A DNA stretch of 33,283 nucleotides from positions 1 through 33,283 of IMG/VR virus record IMGVR_UViG_3300034682_000112; one strand, written 5' to 3'. This document shows positions 9,410 through 27,981 of the stretch, in pieces (the first letter of the stretch is position 1; each line of letters starts with the position of its first letter). Below the pieces are notes generated by a model. That model was not told where the DNA came from, ran no database searches, and saw nothing but the letters and a program-made list of their open reading frames with translations. A program made the translations under genes and the position numbers. The DNA is from a virus.

Positions 9410-9742
9410 ATGACCCACCTGCATATGACTTCCGAGGTCTCGACCATCCGCGTGTACGACGCGCCGGGCGGCTACGAGGCGCGCCGGCCGTACGTGGGAA
9501 TCATGACGGTCAGCCACCTCTCGGACACGGTCGTCTACCTGCACGGCGCCGTCGGCAAGATCGACCGCGCTACCCACCGGGCCGCCCTGGCCATGCTCCG
9601 CGAGCGCGGAGTGACCACGGTGCAGTACGAGCGCCGCGGGAAAATGAAAACAGTATTGCTGAGCGATCTACTGAGGAACTGCAATGACAGTGAAGTTGGC
9701 GCGGGACAAGAATCAGTCGATCAGTGCCCCGGATCACCCTAG
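9410..9742 (+). CDS. Hypothetical protein of the head region
   Basis: A 110-residue protein with no named family. It shows beta-strand-rich segments (STIRVYDAPGGYEARRPYVGIMTVSHL), a GKIDRATHRAALAMLRERGVTTV helix-strand unit and an ERRGKMKTVLLSDLL end. Start ATG 9410 follows a weak GGAACGGA site. Its last 59 bases overlap the fibre gene in another frame, and that overlapped tail looks less protein-like than the rest, so the gene may once have ended earlier. Its place between capsid and connectors suggests a structural or accessory role. Confidence 0.6.
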   Translation: MTHLHMTSEVSTIRVYDAPGGYEARRPYVGIMTVSHLSDTVVYLHGAVGKIDRATHRAALAMLRERGVTTVQYERRGKMKTVLLSDLLRNCNDSEVGAGQESVDQCPGSP

Positions 9743-12700
9743 TCTCACAATCCCGGAAGGCGATTTTACTATCGGCTTCATCATGCGGCTTGACGGGGTG
9801 ATGACAGGCGAGGCGCAAACGATACTTTCGACCGGAAATTTCCAAGAGGCTGGCTCGTTCCAGATCACCTATCAGCCCCTCGGAAACACGCTAGCGAACA
9901 GAATTGCCATCTACCGCAACACGGTGAGCACGAGCCTAGTAAGTTCGGCGGCGGCCTTAGGTGATGCTGGCGCCGTCTTTGCGTATTTCGTCCGGCGCTC
10001 TGGCGGTACGCTCGGGCTGTTCAAGTGTTCGATCCTTTCCAGCGCTCCGGCTGATGGCTCGGCGGTTGTCGCAGACGGAACGGTCGCGAATAATGCAATG
10101 TACGACGGCGCGCGTGGATGGACCATCGGCGCGCGCGCGGACAAAGCCGCAAATCGTTCGCTCGACCATTCCCTGGGTCGCATTTTCCTGGTTCCAGAGG
10201 CCCTGAGCACGCTGGAAATGTCGCGCTACGCCTATGGCGAAGACATCGTGGCGCAGCTCGGCAAGATCGTGAGCGCGTACGTGCGCTTCGACACCCCGGA
10301 CGACATCGCGGACCGCAGCGCGAATGCGAACGTTTTCACGGTCAATAATGGCCCCCTGACGGCCAGCGCCGTGGAACCGCCCTTTGGCTATGCTCCCGCC
10401 GCCACGCCGCCGACGATCAACGGCGCACCGGAAATCAGTGGCCCGGCCACGGTTGGCCAAGCAATCGGCTATACGCCAGCTCCGCACACCGGCACGCCTA
10501 CGCCTACGCGCACGCAGCAATGGCTGCTCGATGGCGTGGCCGTTGCTGGCGCCACTGGTGCGACTTATACGTCAGTGGCGAGCGACGTGGGCATCGACAG
10601 GCTGCGAGTAATCCAGTTCGCATCGAATGGGCAGGGTAGCCCGGCCAGCGCAACCAGCGAACCGGTAAGTGTTCAAGGTGCCGCCACGAATTCGATCAGT
10701 GTCACGCCTCTCGATAGCAACCGCATCGTGCAGCGAGGCTACCCGGTGCGCCTTGATATGGCGTACACCGGCAAGACGCCTACCGCGCTTGAATACCTGC
10801 TTACCCGTGCCGACGGCGTCACGGTGGCCCAAAACTGGACCGCGCTTGCCGGCGCAAGTATTGACGACGGCATCGCCGTGGCCGACGTGGTCATGCCGTC
10901 CGGAGGCCCGTACCGGCTGTCGGTGCGCTCGCGCGACGCATCGGGCATTCTGGCAAGTTCTGCTTCGCCAACCACCGAGGTATTTCTCGTCGGCGGCATT
11001 GGCGCGGTCCTCGGGTCGTCCAGCGCATCCCGGTTCTTCGAGGGCTGGAGCGGATCCGGGTACACCCCCGATGCCCTGACGCGGCGTTTGTCGGCGTCAA
11101 CGCTCACCTGGGGCACCATGAGCACGGAGGGCGCGGCCACGGTGCTGGCGGCGAGCCTGCGCCAACAATCCGGCGTACCAATCGGTTTGCTGCCTTGCGG
11201 CGACAGCGGCACGAAGTTGACCGATTGGCTGAACACAAGTGGCGCCCAGTGGACCACATTTCTGCAGTTGCTGGCGGAAGCCGGCGGCAAACTGGAATTC
11301 GTATATATCACGCTCGGTTCCAACGATGCCGCCGCAGCGACGAACTGGAGCGAGGTTGCCACGCATTACAACCGCATGGTGACGCTTGCCGATCGTATCC
11401 GGGAGGTAACCGGCCAACCAAACCTGCCGATTCTGTGGGGCGGGTCGAACCGTCGCACGGACATGACCCAGGCGAACGCGGACCTGTTGCGCCAGGCTGA
11501 AAACATGATCGGGGATTATCCGAACGTCTACCACGTGCAGACAGTCGATTTCCCGCTGCGCACGGACGACGGCGTGCATCTGACCGCAGCCGGCTTTCTC
11601 TCCAGCGCGAACCGGACCGCTTATGTCCTTGGGCGCAAACTTTATGGCGATGGCCTCTACGCTCGAGGCCCGGCCCTGGGTGCGGGGGTTTTTGACGGCA
11701 ACCGTATCCGCGTGCCGCTGACGCATCGCAACGGCGACAATTTCACCCCGGCGGCGGCCTACACCGGCATCACCGTGGCCGACGGGTCCGAAGCGCTGAC
11801 GATCACTACTGAAAAATACAGCGCTACCGAATTCGACATCGTGGGCTCTCGCGATTTCGTAGCGCCTACCGTCAGCTATTTGAGCGGCACGAATCCAGAT
11901 GTCACAGGGTCGATTTTCGATAACGGTGCGACCGCGCTACCGGCCAATATGAGCCCGGCGCGGGCGCCTGTCGCTGGCAACCTGGAGACCACGCCGCCGG
12001 TCGATAGCACCGCGCCTGCGTGGCCAGGCGGAGCTCAGCTGACCGCATCCAACATCACCACGAGCGGGGCCACGCTGACCGCCTCGGCGCCAGCGACCGA
12101 TTCCGTGGGCGTGGCCGGTTATCAAATCAGCCTGAACGGCGGGACCAGCTACAACAACATCGGGCCGTCGCCCACCACTACAGTTACCGGGCGCCCGGCC
12201 AATAGCTCGGTTACGGTGCTGATGCGCGCGTACGATGCTGCGCTGAATTACTCGACGGCGCTAGCTCGCACCTTCACCACGCTCGCCGAAACGCCTGGCC
12301 AGGACGACTTCGACGCCACGAAGGTGGCGCCGGCGCGCAAGGTCGTCTTCTCAGGCGGCACGCGAGTGGTGGTCTTCGGCGGGCCGGTGGTGGTTTACCC
12401 GGGCGGGCCGTACCAGCAGGATGGGCGCTGGACGATCGACAAGCATCCTCTGGACGAGTTCTACTGTGTGGCGGACATCTCGTTCGACCTCACAGAGAGC
12501 CAAGCCACTGCGGTGTTAGTTGTTGCGGTGACAGGCGGGGTGCAGGTTATCGAGCAGCCCGTGTTGCAGGGTTCGCTCATCGCAGTGAAAGTTGGCGGCC
12601 TGGACGAGCTTTCGGGCGCGGCCAACTTCTGCACCTTGCGCGTGACGCTCTCGAACGGCGAGCAGATCGACCGCACGATCTGGTTCGCCAGGCTCCAGGG

Positions 12701-12983
12701 CACCTGGGCGGTGCAGAAGGATCCAGACGACAAACGCTACTTCGTGGCCGACGTCACGAACATCCTTGCTGACAGCGGCACGCAGATCGCATCGGCGCTG
12801 CCGGCGATCCCGGTCGGCGTACAGGTTCTCGAGCAGCCGGTCGCCCAGGGCGCGCTGATCATGGTGAAGCTGGGCGGCATGGATGTCTCGGCCGACCCGC
12901 TCAACCACTGCACGTTGCCGTTCCTCTGTGCGAACGGCGAAAAGTTCTTCCGGACCATTCACTTCAATAGGGTGGACAACTGA
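9684..12983 (+). CDS. Multidomain putative capsid fibre with SGNH-esterase-like domain
   Basis: A 1099-residue protein encoded between the capsid and connector genes. In order: a LamG/concanavalin-like beta region (about 10-215); an Ig-like stretch (about 245-335) with the QWLLDGVAVAGATGATY pattern; a beta linker; an SGNH hydrolase-like domain (about 435-655); a fibronectin III-like domain (about 775-870); and two copies of a roughly 90-residue repeat (about 911-1001 and 1004-1095). The hydrolase blocks are GSSS (444-447, S446 as likely nucleophile in place of GDS), CGDSGTKL (G509), LGSNDA (N547) and DDGVHL (D629, H632). The block order and sequence resemble sialate/carbohydrate O-acetylesterases. 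GAGGA lies 6 bases before ATG 9684. Host polysaccharide deacetylation is an inference. Confidence 0.75.
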   Translation: MTVKLARDKNQSISAPDHPSLTIPEGDFTIGFIMRLDGVMTGEAQTILSTGNFQEAGSFQITYQPLGNTLANRIAIYRNTVSTSLVSSAAALGDAGAVFAYFVRRSGGTLGLFKCSILSSAPADGSAVVADGTVANNAMYDGARGWTIGARADKAANRSLDHSLGRIFLVPEALSTLEMSRYAYGEDIVAQLGKIVSAYVRFDTPDDIADRSANANVFTVNNGPLTASAVEPPFGYAPAATPPTINGAPEISGPATVGQAIGYTPAPHTGTPTPTRTQQWLLDGVAVAGATGATYTSVASDVGIDRLRVIQFASNGQGSPASATSEPVSVQGAATNSISVTPLDSNRIVQRGYPVRLDMAYTGKTPTALEYLLTRADGVTVAQNWTALAGASIDDGIAVADVVMPSGGPYRLSVRSRDASGILASSASPTTEVFLVGGIGAVLGSSSASRFFEGWSGSGYTPDALTRRLSASTLTWGTMSTEGAATVLAASLRQQSGVPIGLLPCGDSGTKLTDWLNTSGAQWTTFLQLLAEAGGKLEFVYITLGSNDAAAATNWSEVATHYNRMVTLADRIREVTGQPNLPILWGGSNRRTDMTQANADLLRQAENMIGDYPNVYHVQTVDFPLRTDDGVHLTAAGFLSSANRTAYVLGRKLYGDGLYARGPALGAGVFDGNRIRVPLTHRNGDNFTPAAAYTGITVADGSEALTITTEKYSATEFDIVGSRDFVAPTVSYLSGTNPDVTGSIFDNGATALPANMSPARAPVAGNLETTPPVDSTAPAWPGGAQLTASNITTSGATLTASAPATDSVGVAGYQISLNGGTSYNNIGPSPTTTVTGRPANSSVTVLMRAYDAALNYSTALARTFTTLAETPGQDDFDATKVAPARKVVFSGGTRVVVFGGPVVVYPGGPYQQDGRWTIDKHPLDEFYCVADISFDLTESQATAVLVVAVTGGVQVIEQPVLQGSLIAVKVGGLDELSGAANFCTLRVTLSNGEQIDRTIWFARLQGTWAVQKDPDDKRYFVADVTNILADSGTQIASALPAIPVGVQVLEQPVAQGALIMVKLGGMDVSADPLNHCTLPFLCANGEKFFRTIHFNRVDN

Positions 12984-15994: not shown

Positions 15995-16289
15995 CTATGA
16001 GCCTGAGCCCTCCGAAGCCGATCTGGCGGTGGCGGGCCTGACTCTGGAGGACTTGGCGGCGGAGCCTGTCGAAATCTGGCCCGAGAACTACCGGGCCTAT
16101 TGCCTGTTTCATAGCCTCCGCAGGCAATGGCGAATCGCGCCGATGGGCGGCCCGCTCGGGCTCGATTTCGCGATCGCGTTCCATCGGATGGACCGGATGG
16201 AGCTCACGCCGGAGGAATACAACCAGCTGGACGAAGACCTCCAGGTGATGGAAGACGCAGCGCTCGAGGCGATGCGGACCAAGGAATAA
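15972..16289 (+). CDS. Tail assembly chaperone, frameshift extension (T-like, DUF1799-like)
   Basis: The C-terminal part of the fused chaperone, read only after the -1 slip, giving a product of about 210 residues from 15658. The extension contains LYEPEPSEADLAVAGLTLED and then a FHSLRRQWRIAPMGGPLGLD and MELTPEEYNQLDEDLQVMEDAAL region, matching the DUF1799-type proteins found after short chaperones. No well-placed start codon with a ribosome-binding site exists near its beginning (ATG 15997 is in another frame). The T part is expected to bind the tail tube subunits, the G part the tape measure. The stop lies inside the following hairpin. Confidence 0.85.
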   Translation, partial: LRAVASALYEPEPSEADLAVAGLTLEDLAAEPVEIWPENYRAYCLFHSLRRQWRIAPMGGPLGLDFAIAFHRMDRMELTPEEYNQLDEDLQVMEDAALEAMRTKE

Positions 16290-16347
16290 AGGGGTGGTTG
16301 AATCAACCACCCCTTTGTCAAAGGGTAGCCCAGTCTGGGTTACCCTT
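16288..16347. terminator. Two consecutive hairpins between convergent genes
   Basis: Hairpin 1: 13-bp perfect stem (16288-16300 with 16304-16316), AAT loop, AAA/TTT flanks usable in both directions. Hairpin 2: 12-bp stem with one G-T pair (16321-16332 with 16336-16347), GTC loop. They lie at the meeting point of the plus-strand chaperone gene and the minus-strand repressor, and overlap both stop codons. Confidence 0.8.
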
Positions 16348-16792
16348 GATCAGACGGGCTATCTGCCGGGCGCGCGTTGCGCTTACGGATAGTCTCTGTC
16401 AGTGCTTCGATGCGCTTCACGAGCTGGGAGTCGAAGTCAGCGGCGCCATGAATTACAGCGCTCGCATCGGAAATGAATCCCCTGAGCTGCTCTTTTTCAG
16501 CATTGCTTGTCACATGCGGGAGCAGTTGTTCGCAGACGAAGCGGAGGTCAAACGCGAACCGCGCCGCCTGAGCCTTCTCGGTTAGCTTCTCGATTTCCAG
16601 TCGAGCGAGGTCAGTGTTCAGCCGTTCAAACGCCGATAGAAGTATCGCGTACTCCGGAGTGGAGAACGAGCCCTCTAGGCGCCCGATTATTTCAGAATTC
16701 ATGCTTCGGCCATTGTTTTTGGCCTGCTCGGCAATGCGGTCTCGTAACTCGACCGGCATGCGTAGTTTCATTTGTGGATCTTCGCGTGTCAT
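16340..16792 (-). CDS. Arc/Mnt-type ribbon-helix-helix repressor with long C-terminal extension
   Basis: A 150-residue protein transcribed against the late genes. Residues 1-50 match the Arc family: MTREDPQMKLRMPVELRDRI, then AEQAKNNGRSMNSEIIGRLEGSF, where the MKLRMP strand would bind DNA and the RSMNSEI helix is the family hallmark. The remaining 100 residues are helical and charged, probably coiled-coil, longer than in P22 Mnt (83 aa). I choose ATG 16792: it has no ribosome-binding site, but a good promoter (TTGTCA, 17 bases, TATTCT) would place the transcript start at about this codon, suggesting a leaderless mRNA. An in-frame GTG at 16813 lies upstream of that start. It occupies the mnt position of a P22 immI-like switch. 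Confidence 0.85.
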   Translation of the reverse strand: MTREDPQMKLRMPVELRDRIAEQAKNNGRSMNSEIIGRLEGSFSTPEYAILLSAFERLNTDLARLEIEKLTEKAQAARFAFDLRFVCEQLLPHVTSNAEKEQLRGFISDASAVIHGAADFDSQLVKRIEALTETIRKRNARPADSPSDQG

Positions 16793-16798
16793 GGCTGG

Positions 16799-16871
16799 AG
16801 AATAATGCACCACGGTGGTCTTGACAATGGAACCACCGTGATCTATTCTGCTTCACATGGACCACGGTGGT
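16799..16871. promoter_or_regulatory. Overlapping divergent promoters with three palindromic operators
   Basis: Plus strand: TTGACA (16821-16826), 17 bases, TATTCT (16844-16849). Minus strand: TTGTCA (16827-16822), 17 bases, TATTCT (16804-16799). The two -35 boxes overlap. Three copies of the 11-bp near-palindrome ACCAC(C/G)GTGGT lie at 16809-16819, 16832-16842 (one mismatch) and 16861-16871: one in each promoter spacer and one at the start of the plus-strand transcript. Binding by the two ribbon-helix-helix proteins is the obvious inference. Confidence 0.88.
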
Positions 16872-16889
16872 TCGAGGATGGGAGGAAAT

Positions 16890-17063
16890 ATGGAAGGTGC
16901 GAGGGAGCTGCCAAAAATGATCGTAAGGATGCCGCAAGAGGTAAAGGAGCGTCTGCAGCGAAGCGCGAAAACTTCGCTGCGTAGTATGAACAGTGAAATC
17001 TTGGGCCGCTTACTGCGCTCGCTGGAAGAGGATGAAGCCCAGCAAGACGGTAAGCAGAAATGA
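16890..17063 (+). CDS. Arc-like ribbon-helix-helix protein (57 aa)
   Basis: A 57-residue protein close in size to P22 Arc (53 aa). The sequence has LPKMIVRMPQEVKERLQRSA followed by RSMNSEILGRLLRSLEED; the RSMNSEI-GRL core is identical to that of the minus-strand repressor next door, so the two share ancestry or targets. ATG 16890 has a GGAGG at 16881-16885, whereas ATG 16857 lies at the predicted transcript start and overlaps operator 3. As the first gene of the antirepressor operon it would, like Arc, damp expression of the genes behind it. Confidence 0.85.
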   Translation: MEGARELPKMIVRMPQEVKERLQRSAKTSLRSMNSEILGRLLRSLEEDEAQQDGKQK

Positions 17064-17064
17064 A

Positions 17065-17101
17065 AAAGCCCCGAACTAGCTTGGCGGCGGATCGGGGCTT
17101 T
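17065..17101 (+). terminator. Attenuator-like hairpin between arc-like and antirepressor genes
   Basis: AAAGCCCCGA (17065-17074) pairs with TCGGGGCTTT (17092-17101), 17-base loop, short T-run. It is a weak or partial terminator that would lower transcription into the antirepressor genes. Confidence 0.6.
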
Positions 17102-17131
17102 GGTGAAACCACACGTGAATGAGGAAACGAG

Positions 17132-17791
17132 ATGAATGCTACAGCAGTCACTACCAAGATGCAACATGCGCTGACCTTCGGCGCGCATGAAGTCAAGACG
17201 ATCACTCGTGAGGGGCAGCGTTGGATCAGCAACCGGCAGCTCACTGAGTTGCTCGGCTACGCAGATGAGAAGTCGGTCCACCGTCTGTACACAGCGCACG
17301 GTGACGAATTTACCCACACGATGGCGCGCGTGTTTCGAGTGGCAACGGCCGGCGGCAAGCAGGCAATGCGATTTTTCAGCTTGCGTGGTGCGCACCTCGT
17401 CGCAATGTTCGCGCGGACTCCGGTGGCTAAAGCGTTCCGCGTTTGGGTGCTTAATATTCTGGATCAGGAGATCGAGCAGGACCGTGTGGAGCGAGCCGGC
17501 TCTGTAACCCTTAGTGAGGTGCAGAAGCGTGAACTCGACAGCTTGTGCGTTGAGGTGAACTTCATGTCAGCGTGGTGGGAAAAATTCGGCCCAGCGGTTG
17601 AGCTGCTGAATCCCACTCTGTTCAGTGCTTCCTTCGAGATCTTCAACATGGCCAGGAGCCGCGCACGCTGGATCGCCAAAGATCTGGGCTTTCAGACGTG
17701 GAATAAATACTTCGACACATACCCCTGGCACAAAGGGTACACGGATAAGATGCTGCACCGTGAGCGCGCCATCCGGGAGGGTTGGAAATGA
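17132..17791 (+). CDS. Bro-N-like antirepressor
   Basis: A 219-residue protein. The N-terminal 110 residues resemble the Bro-N/antirepressor domain: GQRWISNRQLTELLGYADEK, a middle with GDEFTHTMARVFRVATAGGK, and the typical end FSLRGAHLVAMFARTPVAKAF then RVWVLNILDQEI. The C-terminal half is helical and tryptophan-rich (MSAWWEKFGPAVELLNPTLF) and not recognised. GAGG lies 7 bases before ATG 17132. In P22, Ant binds the prophage repressor and induces lytic growth; here the target would be the main repressor, encoded outside the window. The family call is by motif; the function follows from gene order. Confidence 0.75.
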   Translation: MNATAVTTKMQHALTFGAHEVKTITREGQRWISNRQLTELLGYADEKSVHRLYTAHGDEFTHTMARVFRVATAGGKQAMRFFSLRGAHLVAMFARTPVAKAFRVWVLNILDQEIEQDRVERAGSVTLSEVQKRELDSLCVEVNFMSAWWEKFGPAVELLNPTLFSASFEIFNMARSRARWIAKDLGFQTWNKYFDTYPWHKGYTDKMLHRERAIREGWK

Positions 17792-18579
17792 GCGCGCTTA
17801 TCGAGATCGGCGGCGTCGAACTGGCTCCGGTCGAATACCGCGGCGTGCGAGTCATGACGCTCGGGATGATGGATTCCGTTCATAAGCGCCCGGACGGCAC
17901 CGCACGTCGCAACTTTAACGAGAACAAGGCGCGGCTCATTGAGGGTGAGGATTTCCACGAGGTCACGCAGCCGGACGAGATCCGTATGCTTGGTTTTTCA
18001 AGGCCGCAGGGCGGCACGCCGGCTTCGATGGTTCTGCTCACTGAAACTGGCTACTCGATGGTGGTCAAGAGCTTCACTGACGATCTGGCGTGGGAGGTGC
18101 AGCGGCAACTGGTGAGGTCATATTTCGCCGAGCCCCGGAAGACGATCGAGAAGGCAGCGAATCTAGATGGAGCGTTCCAGGCCCTGAAGCTAGCGCCGCT
18201 CGCCATCAAGGCTGCTCAAGCGTTCGGCCTCAGTAAGAATGCCGCTGCGATCAGTGCGAACCAGGCGGTGACCAAGCTGACCGGAACGAACCTGCTGGGC
18301 CTGCTCGGCCAGACGCACCTCGAGCAAGAGGAGCAGGTGCAATACTTCACCCCGACCGAGCTTGGCGCGCGTGTGGCGCTGAGCGGGCAGAAGGTCAACG
18401 CACTGCTCGCTCAGGCTGGTTTCCAGGCGAAGGTCGAGAAGACCTGGGAGCTGCTGCAGCCTGGGCGCCAGTACGCGATGATCTACGACACCGGGAAGAA
18501 GCACAGCGACGGCGTCCCGGTTCAGCAGGTGAAGTGGTCGGCCAGCGTGCTCGACGCGCTGCCGCCGGCCACAGCGTAG
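17788..18579 (+). CDS. ORF6N-domain antirepressor
   Basis: A 263-residue protein with an N-terminal ORF6N domain: LAPVEYRGVRVMTLGMMDSV, RNFNENKARLIEGEDFHEV, then LLTETGYSMVVKSFTDDLAW and a QRQLVRSYF helix. The C-terminal part (about residues 190-255, with FTPTELGARVALSGQKVNALL) resembles KilA-C/antirepressor C-terminal DNA-binding regions. ATG 17788 is preferred over TTG 17782 because GGGAGG lies 7 bases upstream and ATG overlaps the preceding stop (ATGA), coupling the two antirepressors. Having two different antirepressor types in one operon is unusual. A terminator follows 17 bases after the stop. Confidence 0.82.
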   Translation: MSALIEIGGVELAPVEYRGVRVMTLGMMDSVHKRPDGTARRNFNENKARLIEGEDFHEVTQPDEIRMLGFSRPQGGTPASMVLLTETGYSMVVKSFTDDLAWEVQRQLVRSYFAEPRKTIEKAANLDGAFQALKLAPLAIKAAQAFGLSKNAAAISANQAVTKLTGTNLLGLLGQTHLEQEEQVQYFTPTELGARVALSGQKVNALLAQAGFQAKVEKTWELLQPGRQYAMIYDTGKKHSDGVPVQQVKWSASVLDALPPATA

Positions 18580-18596
18580 CCTGCACGACCTCGAAC

Positions 18597-18625
18597 AGCC
18601 GCCCTAGAAATAGTGGCGGCTTTTC
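18597..18625 (+). terminator. Intrinsic terminator closing the antirepressor operon
   Basis: AGCCGCC (18597-18603) pairs with GGCGGCT (18615-18621). Inside, CTA/TAG closes a GAAA tetraloop, followed by TTTTC. Confidence 0.88.
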
Positions 18626-19044: not shown

Positions 19045-19070
19045 AAGCCGCCTTCGGGCGGCTTTTTTTT
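19045..19070 (+). terminator. Intrinsic terminator before the tape measure gene
   Basis: AAGCCGCC (19045-19052) pairs with GGCGGCTT (19057-19064) across a TTCG tetraloop, followed by eight Ts. It ends only 11 bases before the tape measure start, leaving almost no leader. Confidence 0.92.
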
Positions 19071-19081
19071 ATGGGCGGCGC

Positions 19082-22000
19082 ATGAGTCAAGTCACCAACG
19101 AAGCGGTCATCAAGGTTACCGCCGACGCGAGCGGCGTCGAATCCGGCCTGCGCCAGGTCGAGGCGGCCACCGCTCGCACCGGCAAGAACCTTGAAAACCT
19201 CGGCGCCACCGCGCAGAAAACGGGGAAGTCGCTCGAGACGCTTGGCGCCGGCCCCGGCCTGCGCAATGTCGGCGATGGTGCTGGCGCTGCAGCTGGCCAG
19301 GTTGATCGCGCGACGAAGAGCATGGCCGACTCGATCCAGCGCGCCACCGCGACGATGAATGCGGGCGCGAAGGGCAGTGCAGCCTATTACGAGGCGCTCG
19401 CCAATACGCGCGGGCTGAACATCACTGCGCTGCGCCCGTATCTCGACCAGTTGGACGCTGTTACCCGCAAAACCCAGCAGGCCGCAGCCGCACAGCGGCA
19501 GCTCGACGCCGGCAATAATTTCCTGGCCGGCTTGCGCGCTCAGGCGGAAGGGATCGGCAAGACTGCCTCGCAGCTGGCCGCATTGCGCGCCGAGCAGCTA
19601 GGTGTCGCGGACGACGCGCGCCCGCTGATCGAGCAGCTGCAGGCCGCCGAGGAGGCTGCTGGTAATGCTGGCAACTCGATCAACGGCTTCGCCGCCGCTC
19701 TTGCTGCAGCGGGCGCGAGCGCGGGCATTGCGAGCCTCGTCCAGCTTTCTGACGCGTACAGCAGCTACATCGCGCAGCTCCGGCTAGCGACGACGGGACA
19801 GACTGAATTTGCGCGGGCGCAGGCATCGGTCCAAAGTATCGCAACCGCCGCTCAATCTGACCTGGCAAGTACCGCCTCGCTCTACGCGAGCATCACGAAA
19901 AGCACGCGCGACCTCGGCATTGCGCAACAGCAGGTCGCGAATATTACTGAGGTGGTCAGCCTGGCCCTGAAGGTGTCGGGCGCCAACTCGCAAAGTGCGT
20001 CCTCGGCAATCCTTCAGCTGTCGCAGGCGTTCGCGTCGGGCGTGCTGCGCGGCGAGGAGTTCAACTCAGTGAACGACGCGGCACCGCGTTTGATGGAGGC
20101 GCTGGCGGACGGCATCGGTGTGCCAGTCGGCGCGCTCCGCGCAATGGCCGAGCAGGGCATGCTGACGACCGACGTTCTGGCGAACGCACTCCCGCGCGCC
20201 CTGAAGAAGCTGCAGGACGAAGCGAGGTCAGTGGAGACCGTTGGTGGCGCTGTGACTGTCCTCAAGGACAAGATCATGCTGCTCGTCGGCGCTACCTCCC
20301 AGTCGAGCGGTGTGGTCGCGGCGCTGTCCGGCGGGCTCAAGCTCCTGACCGATAACCTTGTTCTCGTCGGCGGCGCAATGGCGACCGTCGCCGCAGTGAA
20401 GCTCGGGTCGGCGCTTTCGTCGGCCACTGCGGCGGCTTACGCCAGTGTCGTGGCGAACAATGCGCGCCTGGCATCCAATCTGGCTGCCGCCCGGTCAGAT
20501 GTGGCTGCCACTGGCAGTGCAGCGGCGCTGGCAGCCGCTCGGGTGGCGGAGTTGCGCGCCGCGGTCTTGGCCGCCGAGGGCAACGTAGCGCTTGCGATCA
20601 CGACCAATGCACTCATTCCTGCGCAGGCGAAGGCTACGACAGCCGCTGCCGCACATGCTGCGGCGCTGACAGCCCAAGCCGGCGCAGCCAGTGCGGCATC
20701 TTTGGCTGGCCGTGCGTTCAGCGGCGTGATGGCATTGGCGGGCGGTCCCGTCGGGGCAATTATTGGCCTTCTCGGCATCGCCGCGACGATCTGGGGCGCA
20801 TGGTCGATCTCAGCCAGGGAGGCAAACGACAAGGTTGCACAGTCGACCGAAGAGTCGACCGCCGACATGATCAAGCGGCTGGACGAACAAATCGCGAAGC
20901 TGCGTGAGCGCAATGCGCTTGCCGCAGAGGAGCCGCGCATCAAGGCGCTGGATGGGATCAGCCAGGTGGATCGGGAAGGGCTCGAGCGCGCACGCGAGGC
21001 GCTGGCCAGAAACAGGCGCGACCAGCAGGCAAACCGTGACAATGCGCAGTACCACCTCAATATCGATCTGCGCCGGCAGGAGATCGTGCTGTCGAATGAA
21101 TACGAGGCGGCGCTCGAACGGGTTGCCGCCCAACAGCGCGAGGTTGCCATTGCAGCAGCGCGGACTCGCGATGAGAGGATCGACCAGTGGTTCGAAAAGA
21201 ACGGCACGCCGGCCCAGCGCCTCGCTGCCGAGCTTACTGAGCTGAAAAAGCAGTTTGGCGCCATCCCTCCCGAAATGGAGAAGTTGGTGCGCGCCAAGTA
21301 TGTTGACCCGGCGGCCACCAAGGCGCTCGCGGACCAGGCGAAGGCGGCGAAGGAATACGCCGACCTGATCGACCGCATCAGCGGCAAGAGCGCGGGCGTC
21401 GACGCCGACTACGTGGAGAACCTGCAGAAGCTGGCTGGTGGCTACGCCGCCGGCAAGCAGTCGATGGCGGATTACGTGGCCACCGTCGAGGCGTACATCA
21501 AGCAGCAGCCCTTCGCCAAGCAGGCCGAAGAAGACCGTCTCCGGGCGCTCAAGGAACTGAGCGACTTCCAGGATGGTTATTCCAAGGGGCTGGAGGCGAC
21601 CAGCGCCGTGTACGCCAAGCGCGTGCAGGACGCTCAGGACGAAGCGACCCGCAACGAAGAGCTGGCGCGCACCTACGGCATGACCAAGTCGGCGGTCGAG
21701 CAGCTGGAACTGGCGCGCCTGGAAGGCCAACTGGCGCAGCGCTCGACTCTGGGCCTCACGCTCGACGAGATCGAGACGCTCGAGAAGCTGATCGACGCGA
21801 AGAAGCGCAACGCTGCGGCGGTGTCGGCCATGGAGCAGGTCGACGCGGCGAAGAAGGCGGCGGAGGAATGGAAGCGCGCCTCCGACTCGATTGAGCAGTC
21901 GCTCACCGATGCGCTGCTGCGCGGGTTCGAGAACGGCAACGGTTTTGGCAAGAACCTGGTCGAGACGCTGAAAAACATGTTCGGCACGCTGGTGCTGCGC

Positions 22001-24508
22001 CCGATCATCTCGCCGCTGGTCAACCCTCTCGCGGCCGGCCTGGCGAACACGTTCGGGCTCGGTGGCGCGGCGGGCGCCGCTGGCGCTGGCGCAACCGGCC
22101 TGGCTGGCGTTGCCAGCGGGGTATCCAACCTGTACGGCTTGGCCACCGGTGGCGCCACGCTGGCCGGCGGGCTGGGGACTGGCTTTCTCGGCAGTCTGGC
22201 CGGCGGCTTGAACGGCGCCGGCATCGGCTCCGGCCTGACGTCCGCGCTCGGCATGAACATCGGCAACGGCATTGCGAGCGTGGTCGGTCCGAACATCGCC
22301 AGCGGCATCGCGTCGGGGCTGTCTGGGCTGGCAGCGGCAGCGCCGTGGGTCGCTGGTGCGCTGGCGGTTGTCTCGATCGGCAAGGCGGCGTTTGGCCGCG
22401 GTCCGAAAGAGTACAGCGGTGAGCAGACCCTCAATGGTTCGCTCGGCGCTGGCGGTTTCACCGGGACCATGGATGCCGATTGGGTGAAGAAGGGCGGCTG
22501 GTTCCGCAGCGACAAGAAAGGCACGGACCGCAACCCGGTAGGCGCCGAGTTCGCCGCGGGCCTGACGTCGGCCTACGACGCAATCAAGGCATCGTCGGCG
22601 GATTTCGCCGAGGTTCTGGGTCTCAATGCTGCGAGCATCGCAACCCGCTCGCAGACCATCAAGATCGCGCTCGGCAAGGACGAGGCCGCCAATCAAGCGG
22701 CAATCGCCGAGTTCTTCGCCGGCGTGGCCAACACGGTAGCGGCCGAGCTGCTGCCGGAGATTGGCAAGTTCCAAGTGCAGGGCGAGCAGGCGTCGGCCAC
22801 GCTGCAGCGCCTGGCGGTCAATTTCAGCGCCGTCGACCAGATCCTGGTAGCGATGGGCACCAGCTCGGAAGTTGCATTCCGCGCTGTCGGCGCCGCATCG
22901 ATCGAGGCGCGCGAGCGGCTGCTGGCATTTGCCGGCGGCATCGACGCGCTCGCCTCGGCGACGACCTTCTTCAACGACAACTTCCTGACGGAAGCGGAGC
23001 GGGTGGCGATCATCCAGAAGCCGCTGCAGGAAGGGCTGGCGGCGCTGGGCTTCGCCGGCCTGGCCACCTCAGACCAGTTCAAGGAGGCGGTGCAGGGCCT
23101 GGTGTCGTCGGGCGCGCTGGCGACGGAGCAGGGTGCGAAGCAGTACGCCGGCCTGCTGGCCCTGGGCCCGCAGTTCAAGACCGTGTCCGACTACCTGAAA
23201 TCGGTGGGCGACGCGGCGGCGGAAACGGCCCGGCAAGCGGCCGAGGCGGCAAAGGAGGCCGAGGAGGCGGCGAAACGCGCGGCGGAGGCTGCGCGCCAGG
23301 CGGCAGTCGAGCAGGCCGCAAGCCTGATCTCTGGCGTCGACGCCGCCTTCTCGGTGCTGCAGCGCGTGGTCGACCGCCAGAAGAAGGCGCTGCAGGAGGA
23401 AATCTCCGTGCGCACGGCCTCGATCCAGAAGATTGAAGCGCTGTCGCAGTCGCTGCGGTCCACCCTGGACGGCATGACGGTATCCGGTCGAGAGGCCGAA
23501 GACCGCCGGGCCGCCCAGGCGCAGATCGAAGCGGCGCTGGCGATCGCCAAGGCCTCGGGCAAGCTGCCGAGCGCCGAGGACCTGCGCAGCGCGCTGTCGG
23601 TGGTCAGCCGGGATTCGTCCGCGCTGTTCGCCACGCAAGAGGACTACCTGCGCGACTTCTACGCCACCCGGATCGGTATCGAGGATCTGGCCGGCCTGAC
23701 CGACGATGCACTGTCGGTCGAGGAGCGCAGCCTGAAGAAGCTCGAGGACCAGGTCAAGCAGTACGACCTGATGCTCGAGCGAGAGCAGGAGCAGATCGAC
23801 GTTCTGAAGGGGATTTCGACCATCGGCTTGTCGATCGAGCAGGCGCTCCAGGCGCTGCGCGGCGCGATGCTCGCCGCCGGTAGCAACCCGATCAATTCGG
23901 CAACCTCGGCCATCAGCGACGCCTACAAAACGTCGCTGGGCCGGGCGCCGGATCAGGCCGGGCTTGACTACTGGAAGGGCATCGCCGCCGGCGGCACTTC
24001 GACCGGCGCGATTGTCGACTCGATCAAGAACTCGCCCGAGGCGCAGCTTCAGAAGCTCTACAAGGAAGTGTTCGGCCGCACGGCTGACGCGGCCGGACTG
24101 GACTACTGGATGGGGCAGGTCAAGAACGGCATCAGCCTGGGCGCCATCAAGGACACGTTCGAGAACAGCGACGAGGCCAAGAAGAAGCTTCGAGGCTTCG
24201 CCGTCGGCACGAACTACATCCCGGTCGACATGCCGGCGATGGTCCACCAGGGCGAACGCATCATCCCTGCGGCTGACAACCGCGAGTTGATGCGCCGCTT
24301 GGCCAGCCCAGAGCAGGGCAACGAGGTGCTGGTCGCCGAGATCCGCGCGCTGCGTGAGGAAGTCGCTCTGCTGCGCCGGACCAACAGCGACGAAAACTAC
24401 TCAATCGCCAAGCATGCGCTGGACACTGCCAGCGCGCTGGACGATGCACTCAACGGCAACAAGCCACTGGCGACGAAGGTCGTTCAAGAGCAGGAGGAAA
24501 CTCAGTGA
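19082..24508 (+). CDS. Tail tape measure protein with C-terminal DUF4214 repeats
   Basis: An 1808-residue protein that sets tail length and is threaded inside the tube. The tape-measure N-terminal domain spans about residues 215-400 (QLSDAYSSYIAQLRLATTG, SASSAILQLSQAFASGVLRG, then FNSVNDAAPRLMEALADGIG). A hydrophobic segment lies at about 545-577 and a glycine/alanine-rich hydrophobic region at about 985-1105; coiled-coil lies between and after them. Near the C-terminus (about 1603-1705) are two DUF4214-like units, each with a (S/F)GR-D-AGLDYW core. At roughly 0.15 nm per residue a tail of around 270 nm is implied (general rule). The start is weakly supported: only GGCGG precedes ATG 19082. 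Confidence 0.93.
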   Translation: MSQVTNEAVIKVTADASGVESGLRQVEAATARTGKNLENLGATAQKTGKSLETLGAGPGLRNVGDGAGAAAGQVDRATKSMADSIQRATATMNAGAKGSAAYYEALANTRGLNITALRPYLDQLDAVTRKTQQAAAAQRQLDAGNNFLAGLRAQAEGIGKTASQLAALRAEQLGVADDARPLIEQLQAAEEAAGNAGNSINGFAAALAAAGASAGIASLVQLSDAYSSYIAQLRLATTGQTEFARAQASVQSIATAAQSDLASTASLYASITKSTRDLGIAQQQVANITEVVSLALKVSGANSQSASSAILQLSQAFASGVLRGEEFNSVNDAAPRLMEALADGIGVPVGALRAMAEQGMLTTDVLANALPRALKKLQDEARSVETVGGAVTVLKDKIMLLVGATSQSSGVVAALSGGLKLLTDNLVLVGGAMATVAAVKLGSALSSATAAAYASVVANNARLASNLAAARSDVAATGSAAALAAARVAELRAAVLAAEGNVALAITTNALIPAQAKATTAAAAHAAALTAQAGAASAASLAGRAFSGVMALAGGPVGAIIGLLGIAATIWGAWSISAREANDKVAQSTEESTADMIKRLDEQIAKLRERNALAAEEPRIKALDGISQVDREGLERAREALARNRRDQQANRDNAQYHLNIDLRRQEIVLSNEYEAALERVAAQQREVAIAAARTRDERIDQWFEKNGTPAQRLAAELTELKKQFGAIPPEMEKLVRAKYVDPAATKALADQAKAAKEYADLIDRISGKSAGVDADYVENLQKLAGGYAAGKQSMADYVATVEAYIKQQPFAKQAEEDRLRALKELSDFQDGYSKGLEATSAVYAKRVQDAQDEATRNEELARTYGMTKSAVEQLELARLEGQLAQRSTLGLTLDEIETLEKLIDAKKRNAAAVSAMEQVDAAKKAAEEWKRASDSIEQSLTDALLRGFENGNGFGKNLVETLKNMFGTLVLRPIISPLVNPLAAGLANTFGLGGAAGAAGAGATGLAGVASGVSNLYGLATGGATLAGGLGTGFLGSLAGGLNGAGIGSGLTSALGMNIGNGIASVVGPNIASGIASGLSGLAAAAPWVAGALAVVSIGKAAFGRGPKEYSGEQTLNGSLGAGGFTGTMDADWVKKGGWFRSDKKGTDRNPVGAEFAAGLTSAYDAIKASSADFAEVLGLNAASIATRSQTIKIALGKDEAANQAAIAEFFAGVANTVAAELLPEIGKFQVQGEQASATLQRLAVNFSAVDQILVAMGTSSEVAFRAVGAASIEARERLLAFAGGIDALASATTFFNDNFLTEAERVAIIQKPLQEGLAALGFAGLATSDQFKEAVQGLVSSGALATEQGAKQYAGLLALGPQFKTVSDYLKSVGDAAAETARQAAEAAKEAEEAAKRAAEAARQAAVEQAASLISGVDAAFSVLQRVVDRQKKALQEEISVRTASIQKIEALSQSLRSTLDGMTVSGREAEDRRAAQAQIEAALAIAKASGKLPSAEDLRSALSVVSRDSSALFATQEDYLRDFYATRIGIEDLAGLTDDALSVEERSLKKLEDQVKQYDLMLEREQEQIDVLKGISTIGLSIEQALQALRGAMLAAGSNPINSATSAISDAYKTSLGRAPDQAGLDYWKGIAAGGTSTGAIVDSIKNSPEAQLQKLYKEVFGRTADAAGLDYWMGQVKNGISLGAIKDTFENSDEAKKKLRGFAVGTNYIPVDMPAMVHQGERIIPAADNRELMRRLASPEQGNEVLVAEIRALREEVALLRRTNSDENYSIAKHALDTASALDDALNGNKPLATKVVQEQEETQ

Positions 24509-27167: not shown

Positions 27168-27502
27168 CGACCCTGCAGATCGCTGAATACTCTAACGGAC
27201 AGACCATCATCCGCGACATGACCGAGGAGGAACGTGCTGCAATCTCGCCCGTTGTGGCCGAGGTGCCGGGCGAGGTCACGATGCGCCAGGCCCGGCTCGC
27301 GCTGCTGGCTATTGACAAGCTCGACCAGGTCGCGCCGGCGATCGAATCGCTAGAAGGAGCCGAGCGCGACGCGGCCCGGATCGAATGGGAGTTCTCCAGC
27401 ACCGTGGTACGCAGCCGACCGCTGGTGGTCATGCTGGGCCAGGCGCTGGGCCTCGACGAAGAGGCGCTCGATCAACTGTTCATCACCGCAGCGGGGTTGT
27501 AA
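27164..27502 (+). CDS. Small tail-region protein (XkdW/fibre-assembly-like)
   Basis: A 112-residue protein, ATG 27164 overlapping the fibre stop. The C-terminal 65 residues have VTMRQARLALLAIDKLDQVA, then RIEWEFSSTVVRSRPLVVML and GLDEEALDQLFITAA, a pattern shared by small proteins after phage tail fibres (XkdW-like, tail-fibre-assembly-like). The N-terminal 35 residues form a short beta unit. It probably assists fibre folding or attachment, by neighbourhood only. The stop overlaps the next ATG by one base (TAATG). Confidence 0.65.
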   Translation: MTTLQIAEYSNGQTIIRDMTEEERAAISPVVAEVPGEVTMRQARLALLAIDKLDQVAPAIESLEGAERDAARIEWEFSSTVVRSRPLVVMLGQALGLDEEALDQLFITAAGL

Positions 27503-27981
27503 TGAAAGCAGCGTTCTACAAGGGCACGCGCCCGGGCCTGGCCGGCATCTACAACCGCCTGGTGCGGTGGTGGACGAAGTCGCCGTATTCGCATGTTGAG
27601 CTGATCTTTTACGACGGCGACAAGTGCGCCGGCGGGCTGGCCGCCTCCGCCTCGAACATGGACGGCGGCGTGCGCACCAAGGTGATCGACTTCGACCCGG
27701 CGCGCTGGGACTTCATCGACCTGCCCGACGCCCTGGTCGACCGCGCGTGGCAGTGGTTCCGCGAGCACGACGGCGCCCCGTATGACCTGGTCGGCAACCT
27801 TCAATTCGTGCTGGCGCCGATTCCGCACAGCCAGCGCCGCTGGTTCTGCTCCGAGGCGGTGGCCGCCGCGCTCGGCATTCCGGACCCCTGGCGATACTCG
27901 CCCGGCACGCTGGCCAGCGCGCTCACCCTTCTCCAACCCGCTTCGGCGGGTTTTGTTTTTTCTGATGCACCCACACCATGA
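27502..27981 (+). CDS. Permuted NlpC/P60-like papain-fold enzyme
   Basis: A 159-residue protein resembling the circularly permuted NlpC/P60 (YiiX/YaeF-like) enzymes: the histidine comes first, in SPYSHVELIFYDGD (His about residue 32, acidic residue two later), and the cysteine second, in RRWFCSEAVAAALG (Cys about 116). Tail-associated NlpC/P60 enzymes cut peptidoglycan during DNA entry; here it lies between tail and lysis genes, so either an entry or a lysis role fits. ATG 27502 overlaps the upstream stop. Its last codons run through a terminator hairpin. Substrate unknown. Confidence 0.72.
   Translation: MKAAFYKGTRPGLAGIYNRLVRWWTKSPYSHVELIFYDGDKCAGGLAASASNMDGGVRTKVIDFDPARWDFIDLPDALVDRAWQWFREHDGAPYDLVGNLQFVLAPIPHSQRRWFCSEAVAAALGIPDPWRYSPGTLASALTLLQPASAGFVFSDAPTP
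27935..27962 (+). terminator. Intrinsic terminator inside the 3' end of a coding region
   Basis: AACCCGC (27935-27941) pairs with GCGGGTT (27946-27952) across a TTCG tetraloop, followed by TTGTTTTTTC. It encodes the last residues of the NlpC/P60-like protein and lies 16 bases ahead of the holin start. Confidence 0.85.

Follow-up and report, generated by a model that had tools for sequence, protein, structure and literature searches.

A Probable immI-Like Antirepressor Moron in the Tail Operon of an HK97-Type Siphovirus

Results

Gene Content of the Block

The IMG/VR virus record IMGVR_UViG_3300034682_000112 (33,283 bases, analyzed over its whole length and hereafter called the window) contains the late region of an HK97-type siphovirus, with terminase, portal, protease, capsid, and tail genes; it also encodes an endolysin, and an integrase is located near its right end. 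The tail chaperone pair is separated from the tape measure gene by an insert of 2.75 kilobases (kb), from 16290 to ~19044, which carries a Mnt-like gene on the minus strand, divergent promoters with three operators, an Arc-like gene, Bro-N and ORF6N antirepressor genes, and one gene of unknown function (table 1). A preliminary description of this DNA had likened the block to the immI region of phage P22. Its upstream neighbors are genes for the tail tube protein, Phage_TAC_4, and DUF1799; downstream follows the tape measure gene.

The two repressor genes had been taken for a divergent Arc/Mnt-type pair coding for ribbon-helix-helix (RHH) proteins, and sequence does assign both products to the Arc family, through matches to PF03869, with Mnt and Arc among their matches in PDB. 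In detail, the Mnt-like protein matched pArc (phmmer, 1.9e-7) and P22 Mnt (1mnt, 3.5e-7), and the Arc-like protein AmrZ (7.7e-7), pArc (9.5e-5), Arc (4e-4), and Mnt (8.5e-4). The RHH domains of the two are 57% identical across 37 amino acids (aa). The AlphaFold2 model of the Mnt-like protein (mean predicted local distance difference test score, pLDDT, 75) has helices at 14-26 and 31-42, followed by two long C-terminal helices. A Foldseek search with this model gave nothing below E=0.001 and did not confirm the fold, as is expected for the monomer of a dimeric long-helix fold. The start of the Mnt-like gene was set at ATG 16792, since GTG 16813 falls within the gene's own promoter. The Arc-like gene probably starts at ATG 16891 (Shine-Dalgarno sequence GGGAGGAAAT) and not at 16857.

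The two genes that follow had been described as antirepressor-like, and both match antirepressor families, with Bro-N and ORF6N domains and anti-repressor PHROGs, respectively. The start of the second overlaps the end of the first. Over the part that can be matched, the identity of antirepressor 1 to recorded phages does not exceed 48%; a scan of genome contigs with it found no relative, and in a distant DNA search among annotated phages no more than 5% of the region was covered. Its AlphaFold2 model is poor (pLDDT 60). Assignment of its C-terminus to P22_AR_C was rejected, as the profile comparison with sequences of that type gave a probability of 1%.

Table 1. Features of the block and its edges (positions in the window unless another locus is named)
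Feature	Position	Strand	Remarks
Left-edge hairpin AAAGGGGTGGTTGAATCAACCACCCCTTT	16288..16316		Near-perfect; overlaps DUF1799 stop; self-complementary match
Second hairpin AAGGGTA...TACCCTT	16321..16347		Overlaps Mnt-like stop; read directly
Mnt-like repressor, 150 aa	16340..16792	-	PF03869 4.9e-17; N-terminal Arc/RHH domain (MTREDPQMKLRMP)
Predicted promoter of Mnt-like gene, TTGTCA N17 TATTCT	16799..16827	-	Score 9/12; predicted start at or very near ATG
Operator O1, ACCACGGTGGT	16809..16819		Exact; spacer of Mnt-like promoter
Predicted Pant, TTGACA N17 TATTCT	16821..16849	+	Score 10/12
Operator O2 (ATCACGGTGGT on minus strand)	16832..16842		One mismatch; Pant spacer
Operator O3, ACCACGGTGGT	16861..16871		Exact; downstream of Pant -10
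Arc-like repressor, 57 aa (68 aa if from 16857)	16891..17063	+	PF03869 1.4e-12
Candidate sar-type antisense RNA region	17058..17146	-	Covariance model R1, E=0.0016
Antirepressor 1, Bro-N, 219 aa	17132..17791	+	PF02498 2.6e-9; PHROG anti-repressor 7.8e-31
Candidate Psar, TTGCAT-N17-TAGCAT	17164-17136	-	Inside antirepressor 1 gene start
Antirepressor 2, ORF6N, 263 aa	17788..18579	+	PF10543 4.8e-13; PHROG anti-repressor 6.8e-33
Terminator-like hairpin GCCGCC...GGCGGC, then TTTT	18597..18621	+	Read directly; identical sequence in L001
Accessory gene, 119 aa	18664..19023	+	PHROG 12025 (function-unknown family) 7.7e-20; 94% identical in L114
Right-edge terminator-like hairpin	19045..19064	+	Precedes tape measure gene; present in empty sites too
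Palindrome GGGGGTATCGATTCGATACCCCC in other loci	L113 3987-4009; L002 2141-2163; L111 2425-2447		
Palindrome GGGGGTATCGATTCGATACCCCC in other loci	L114 5397-5419; L112 2646-2668	-	

Insertion Site and Edges of the Block

In a survey of 25 IMG/VR loci retrieved via DUF1799, this gene adjoins the tape measure gene in 21, with a gap of ~40-50 base pairs (bp) that represents the empty site. The gap ends with a hairpin, a T-run, and ATGGGCGG. The same end element is found in the window at 19045-19081, immediately before the tape measure gene, and the right end of the insert was therefore placed at ~19044. Six further loci have the site filled (L001, L002, L003, L040, L113, and L114; L112 is the same contig as L040, and L002 stops before its tape measure gene). 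Because 21 relatives have the empty site and six others have versions of the block, it is regarded as an inserted moron. Its GC content is 0.58, against 0.64 for the overall genome, and, as a moron should, it has promoters of its own, as predicted, and terminator-like hairpins, read directly.

The preliminary description had placed the block at 16288-18625, with the chaperone pair on one side and the tape measure gene on the other, and had called it portable. The neighbors are as given there, and the existence of the junction both with the block (seven cases including the window) and without it supports portability. The right end, on the contrary, had been set too early, as the insert continues through the accessory gene.

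The left-edge hairpin is a possible bidirectional terminator. Similar hairpins with differing arm sequences are found at the left edge in L002, L003, L040, L113, and L114, the last two having been retrieved with one such hairpin as the search pattern. Five IMG/VR contigs carry the perfect palindrome GGGGGTATCGATTCGATACCCCC, possibly a terminator, which stands at the left edge of the block in 4/5 and beside an unrelated gene in L111. An automatic terminator scan listed, on the plus strand, the 19045 hairpin alone, missing that of 18597-18621.

The content of the block varies downstream of antirepressor 1. The second antirepressor position is occupied by an ORF6N gene, a Bro-N gene, an unmatched gene, or none. 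The accessory slot holds a 118-aa gene in L001 and an HNH plus a 62-aa gene in L003. In L002 (1160-1684) the tail tube protein is 91% identical to that of the window, and the first tail chaperone is of a different type, so that chaperone genes are swapped beside the block.

Operators and Divergent Promoters

The shared divergent promoter region with three palindromic operators, as first described, is present. Two of the operators are exact copies of ACCACGGTGGT, which has no other exact copy within the 33-kb window, and the third has a single mismatch. All three are within 63 bp, and the score of the triplet exceeds those of 100/100 shuffles. The two promoters overlap through their -35 boxes; therefore, O1 lies in the leftward spacer, O2 in the Pant spacer, and O3 past the Pant -10. 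Relative to the -35 box the operators stand at -12, +11, and +40, compared with -12, +13, and +39 in the enteric group of blocks and +38 for the P22 Mnt operator.

Recognition strands and operators differ from block to block. The enteric group has a Mnt-like N-terminus MSREDPQLRIRLP, where the window has MTREDPQMKLRMP, and operators of the CCCACGGTGGG type. L040 and a Klebsiella phage, otherwise distant, agree in recognition strand (KFMLR) and in operator (GTCACGGTGAC). Within several blocks the recognition strands of the paired repressors match each other (PFGLR/PFGLR in L002, PYPLR/PYPYR in L001, and KFNLR/KLNLR in SPN3UB). This suggests that the Mnt-like and Arc-like proteins read the same sites, unlike those of P22, and the two repressors, as judged from their sequences, appear to share one operator type. 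An automatic operator finder gave none in L001 and none significant in L003 and in several KFNLR/RFNVR blocks.

A sar-Like Element at the Arc-Antirepressor Junction

In P22, sar is an antisense RNA to the start of ant (PMC11016777; PMC13397905). Covariance model R1 was trained on the minus-strand arc-ant junction of P22 and 20 other enteric phages, with the group of the window left out. In 199 kb, it matched the window and L001 (both E=0.0016), L040 (0.0015), L003 (0.03), and L002 (0.1), and among loci added later L113 (0.0085) and L114 (0.017). The only other match below E=2 in the 199 kb was at the arc-ant junction of Providencia phage PSTNGR2lys. The occurrence of the element at the Arc/antirepressor junction in 7/7 blocks is a stronger argument than the single E-values. 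Rfam gave no match within the block.

Folding places a U-run after the hairpin at 17065-17101, on the minus strand only. Covariation supports the sar stem, at 0.338 compared with 0.189 on average in shuffles (0/500). Among the blocks, antirepressor 1 is nearly identical in its first 20 codons, where synonymous sites are conserved (p 1.4e-5 to 4e-3). Strong constraint by an antisense promoter was considered as the cause of this identity and was partly displaced by recent sharing, in view of the more diverged L113 and L114. In spite of the divergence of these two, TTGC... and TAnCAT hexamers are retained at a spacing of 17 bp. We regard the sar-like element as real at the level of sequence and structure, and its antisense transcription is presumed.

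Likeness to P22 immI

The immI region of P22 (AF217253) has the order mnt (minus strand), arc and ant (plus strand), and tailspike gene 9, and the window shows the same order of repressor, repressor, and antirepressor. The P22 Pant is TTGACA-N17-TATATT, with the 17-bp spacer also found in the window. Downstream of its -10 lies GGTCCACGGTGGACC, the Mnt operator; this shares with O3 the 9-bp core CCACGGTGG, and the distances from the -35 are close (+38 and +40, respectively). The P22 Arc operator sits in the Pant spacer, where the window has O2. Further likenesses are the sar-like element at the arc-ant junction and the orientation along the late operon. Thus, the proposed immI likeness holds in kind and goes further than first described, with operators, promoter layout, and sar-like element all paralleled in P22.

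On the other hand, the antirepressors of the window are Bro-N and ORF6N proteins and not P22 Ant (P22_AR), the Arc and Mnt operators are distinct in P22 and of one motif in the window, and the neighbors are genes 16 and 9 in P22 and the tail chaperone and tape measure genes in the window. As distinct operators and an Ant of the P22 family are not found, the block was classified as an antirepressor moron of the immI-like kind, distinct from P22 immI proper.

Distribution in Other Phages

The location and the siphovirus setting had been called unusual, a claim that finds no support. The Klebsiella antirepressor scan returned 63 IMG/VR loci (not independent, many being near-identical). An RHH pair is detectable in 54 of them. 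In 36/63, a major-tail-type gene lies on the upstream side and a tape measure gene on the downstream side, and 29 of these 36 have the RHH pair too. The annotated Salmonella SPN3UB and Klebsiella ST11-VIM1phi8.1 also hold the module just upstream of the tape measure gene. These enterobacterial siphovirus prophage blocks resemble that of the window in gene order, kind of operator, and sar-like element, and differ from it in operator and recognition types; their first antirepressor also belongs to another sequence family. That of SPN3UB fuses Bro-N to P22_AR_C, a direct link to P22 Ant. In ES18, gp18-20 are morons at the same chaperone/tape measure insertion point, among which no Arc/Mnt or antirepressor genes are annotated. 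The location is not unusual also because this junction of ES18 holds other morons and because P22 immI is itself a late-operon moron (PMC2629481), the ant moron of P22 being a variable, independently expressed insert (PMC2629481).

Similar gene sets are listed for Psychrobacter phage Y8A and Paraburkholderia phage 437 (PMC10434257, PMC5567305). In phage 437, orf63-66 comprise a minus-strand Arc-domain gene (157 aa), a plus-strand Arc gene (60 aa), an antirepressor, and a Roi-type protein (PMC5567305). This phage differs in its myovirus-type tail genes, and orf64 alone was called a moron there, being read as AmrZ-like and possibly linked to biofilm (PMC5567305); the passages covered draw no connection to immI. 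Its neighbors suggest that orf64 corresponds to the Arc-like gene in a block of the immI type. No description of the complete module in siphoviruses was found in searches of the openly accessible literature.

Proposed Function and Alternatives

We consider it likely, with a probability of about 0.8, that the block is an antirepressor moron in the late operon under P22 immI-style control. The gene families and their order, the three operators, the placement of the promoters, the insertion, and the sar-like element can be read directly from the DNA. P22 serves as the analogy for all regulatory interactions, for the transcription of an antisense RNA, and for the target repressor. In the prophage, the Mnt-like protein would sit on the operators and keep Pant off. 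Upon DNA entry or failed repression, Pant would fire and express the Arc-like protein and both antirepressors. The latter would inactivate a CI-type repressor, either the phage's own or that of resident prophages, and lytic growth would be favored. The Arc-like protein would afterwards shut both promoters, the sar-like RNA would hold down translation of antirepressor 1, and the end hairpins would partly insulate the block from late transcription. Every step has a precedent in P22 (PMC11016777, PMC2629481). In the prophage of L040, a repressor with an S24 peptidase domain is a plausible target of the antirepressor.

Several points weigh against this interpretation. The three operators are of one motif, where those of Arc and Mnt in P22 differ. 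Both hexamers of the candidate Psar are poor matches (3/6 and 4/6), and the E-values of the sar model are modest (0.0015-0.1) and were partly scored from the common start-codon context. The Bro-N and ORF6N proteins are named antirepressors mostly by family. Lastly, no HTH_3 (CI-type) repressor was found in the 33-kb contig, so the main immunity region probably lies outside it.

The block may instead serve mainly to protect the lysogen, as a second immunity that silences the antirepressors of invaders with matching operators. The clearly different operator and recognition types among the blocks of related phages are expected if it pays to escape each other's Mnt, and P22 immI is termed a secondary immunity region (PMC11016777). 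Protection as the main role is nevertheless somewhat unlikely; it is compatible with an antirepressor moron under immI-style control, as antirepressor genes that escape silencing would still act.

Bro-N and ORF6N are broad domains of DNA viruses, of which few members have been tested. This breadth, and the variation of the second gene between blocks, would suit DNA-binding proteins of another purpose (e.g., Roi/Rha-like) in a moron unrelated to lysogeny, an explanation made improbable by PHROG antirepressor matches down to 6.8e-33, the Bro-N/P22_AR_C fusion of SPN3UB, and the P22-type control region upstream. An effect on tail gene expression, with terminators and Pant altering tape measure transcription, is very improbable: the ant moron of P22 is believed to influence how the tailspike gene downstream of it is transcribed (PMC2629481) and Pant faces the tape measure gene, but empty sites already have a terminator-like hairpin at that place, so that little need change, and the conserved repressor/operator pairs would be left unexplained.

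Returning to the antirepressor moron under immI-style control, its significance lies in the fact that P22 immI has mostly been regarded as something that belongs to P22-like phages. The present sequences indicate the complete immI control logic, sar included, in siphovirus prophages with other antirepressors and operators. Tentatively, and at rather less than even odds, the immI circuit (Mnt, Arc, sar, and three operators) may be a portable unit, shared by many siphoviruses at a single site of the tail operon, in which recognition strands and operators change together and sar stays. If this is true, the circuit would be a second, independent immunity-type set, each block would silence matching invaders alone, and the antirepressors would be interchangeable. 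With their matched repressor/operator pairs, the blocks form a natural series on which DNA recognition by beta-strands can be tested, and they yield a testable prediction of which prophages silence, or are overridden by, which invaders. Most interesting here are the sar-like element, for its conservation, and the repressor/operator pairs, for their change from block to block.

Other Observations

PHROG 795 and 2685, matched by 16340-16792 and 16857-17063, are labeled "partition protein ATPase", a label that some records also give to Mnt genes of P22-like phages. It appears to be mistaken, since both PHROGs match Arc/Mnt repressors.

The window encodes a 1099-aa protein (9684-12983), flanked by the capsid gene on one side and the head-tail connector genes on the other, with only a short match to PHROG 1407 (major tail protein family, 1.7e-6). 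A large, unrelated-looking open reading frame occupies a comparable place in L003 (2-1747). The gene at 27385-27981 carries an enoyl-CoA hydratase-like PHROG label (2.4e-42) and had no match in the Pfam search. The tape measure protein (19082-24508) has DUF4214 repeats close to its C-terminus.

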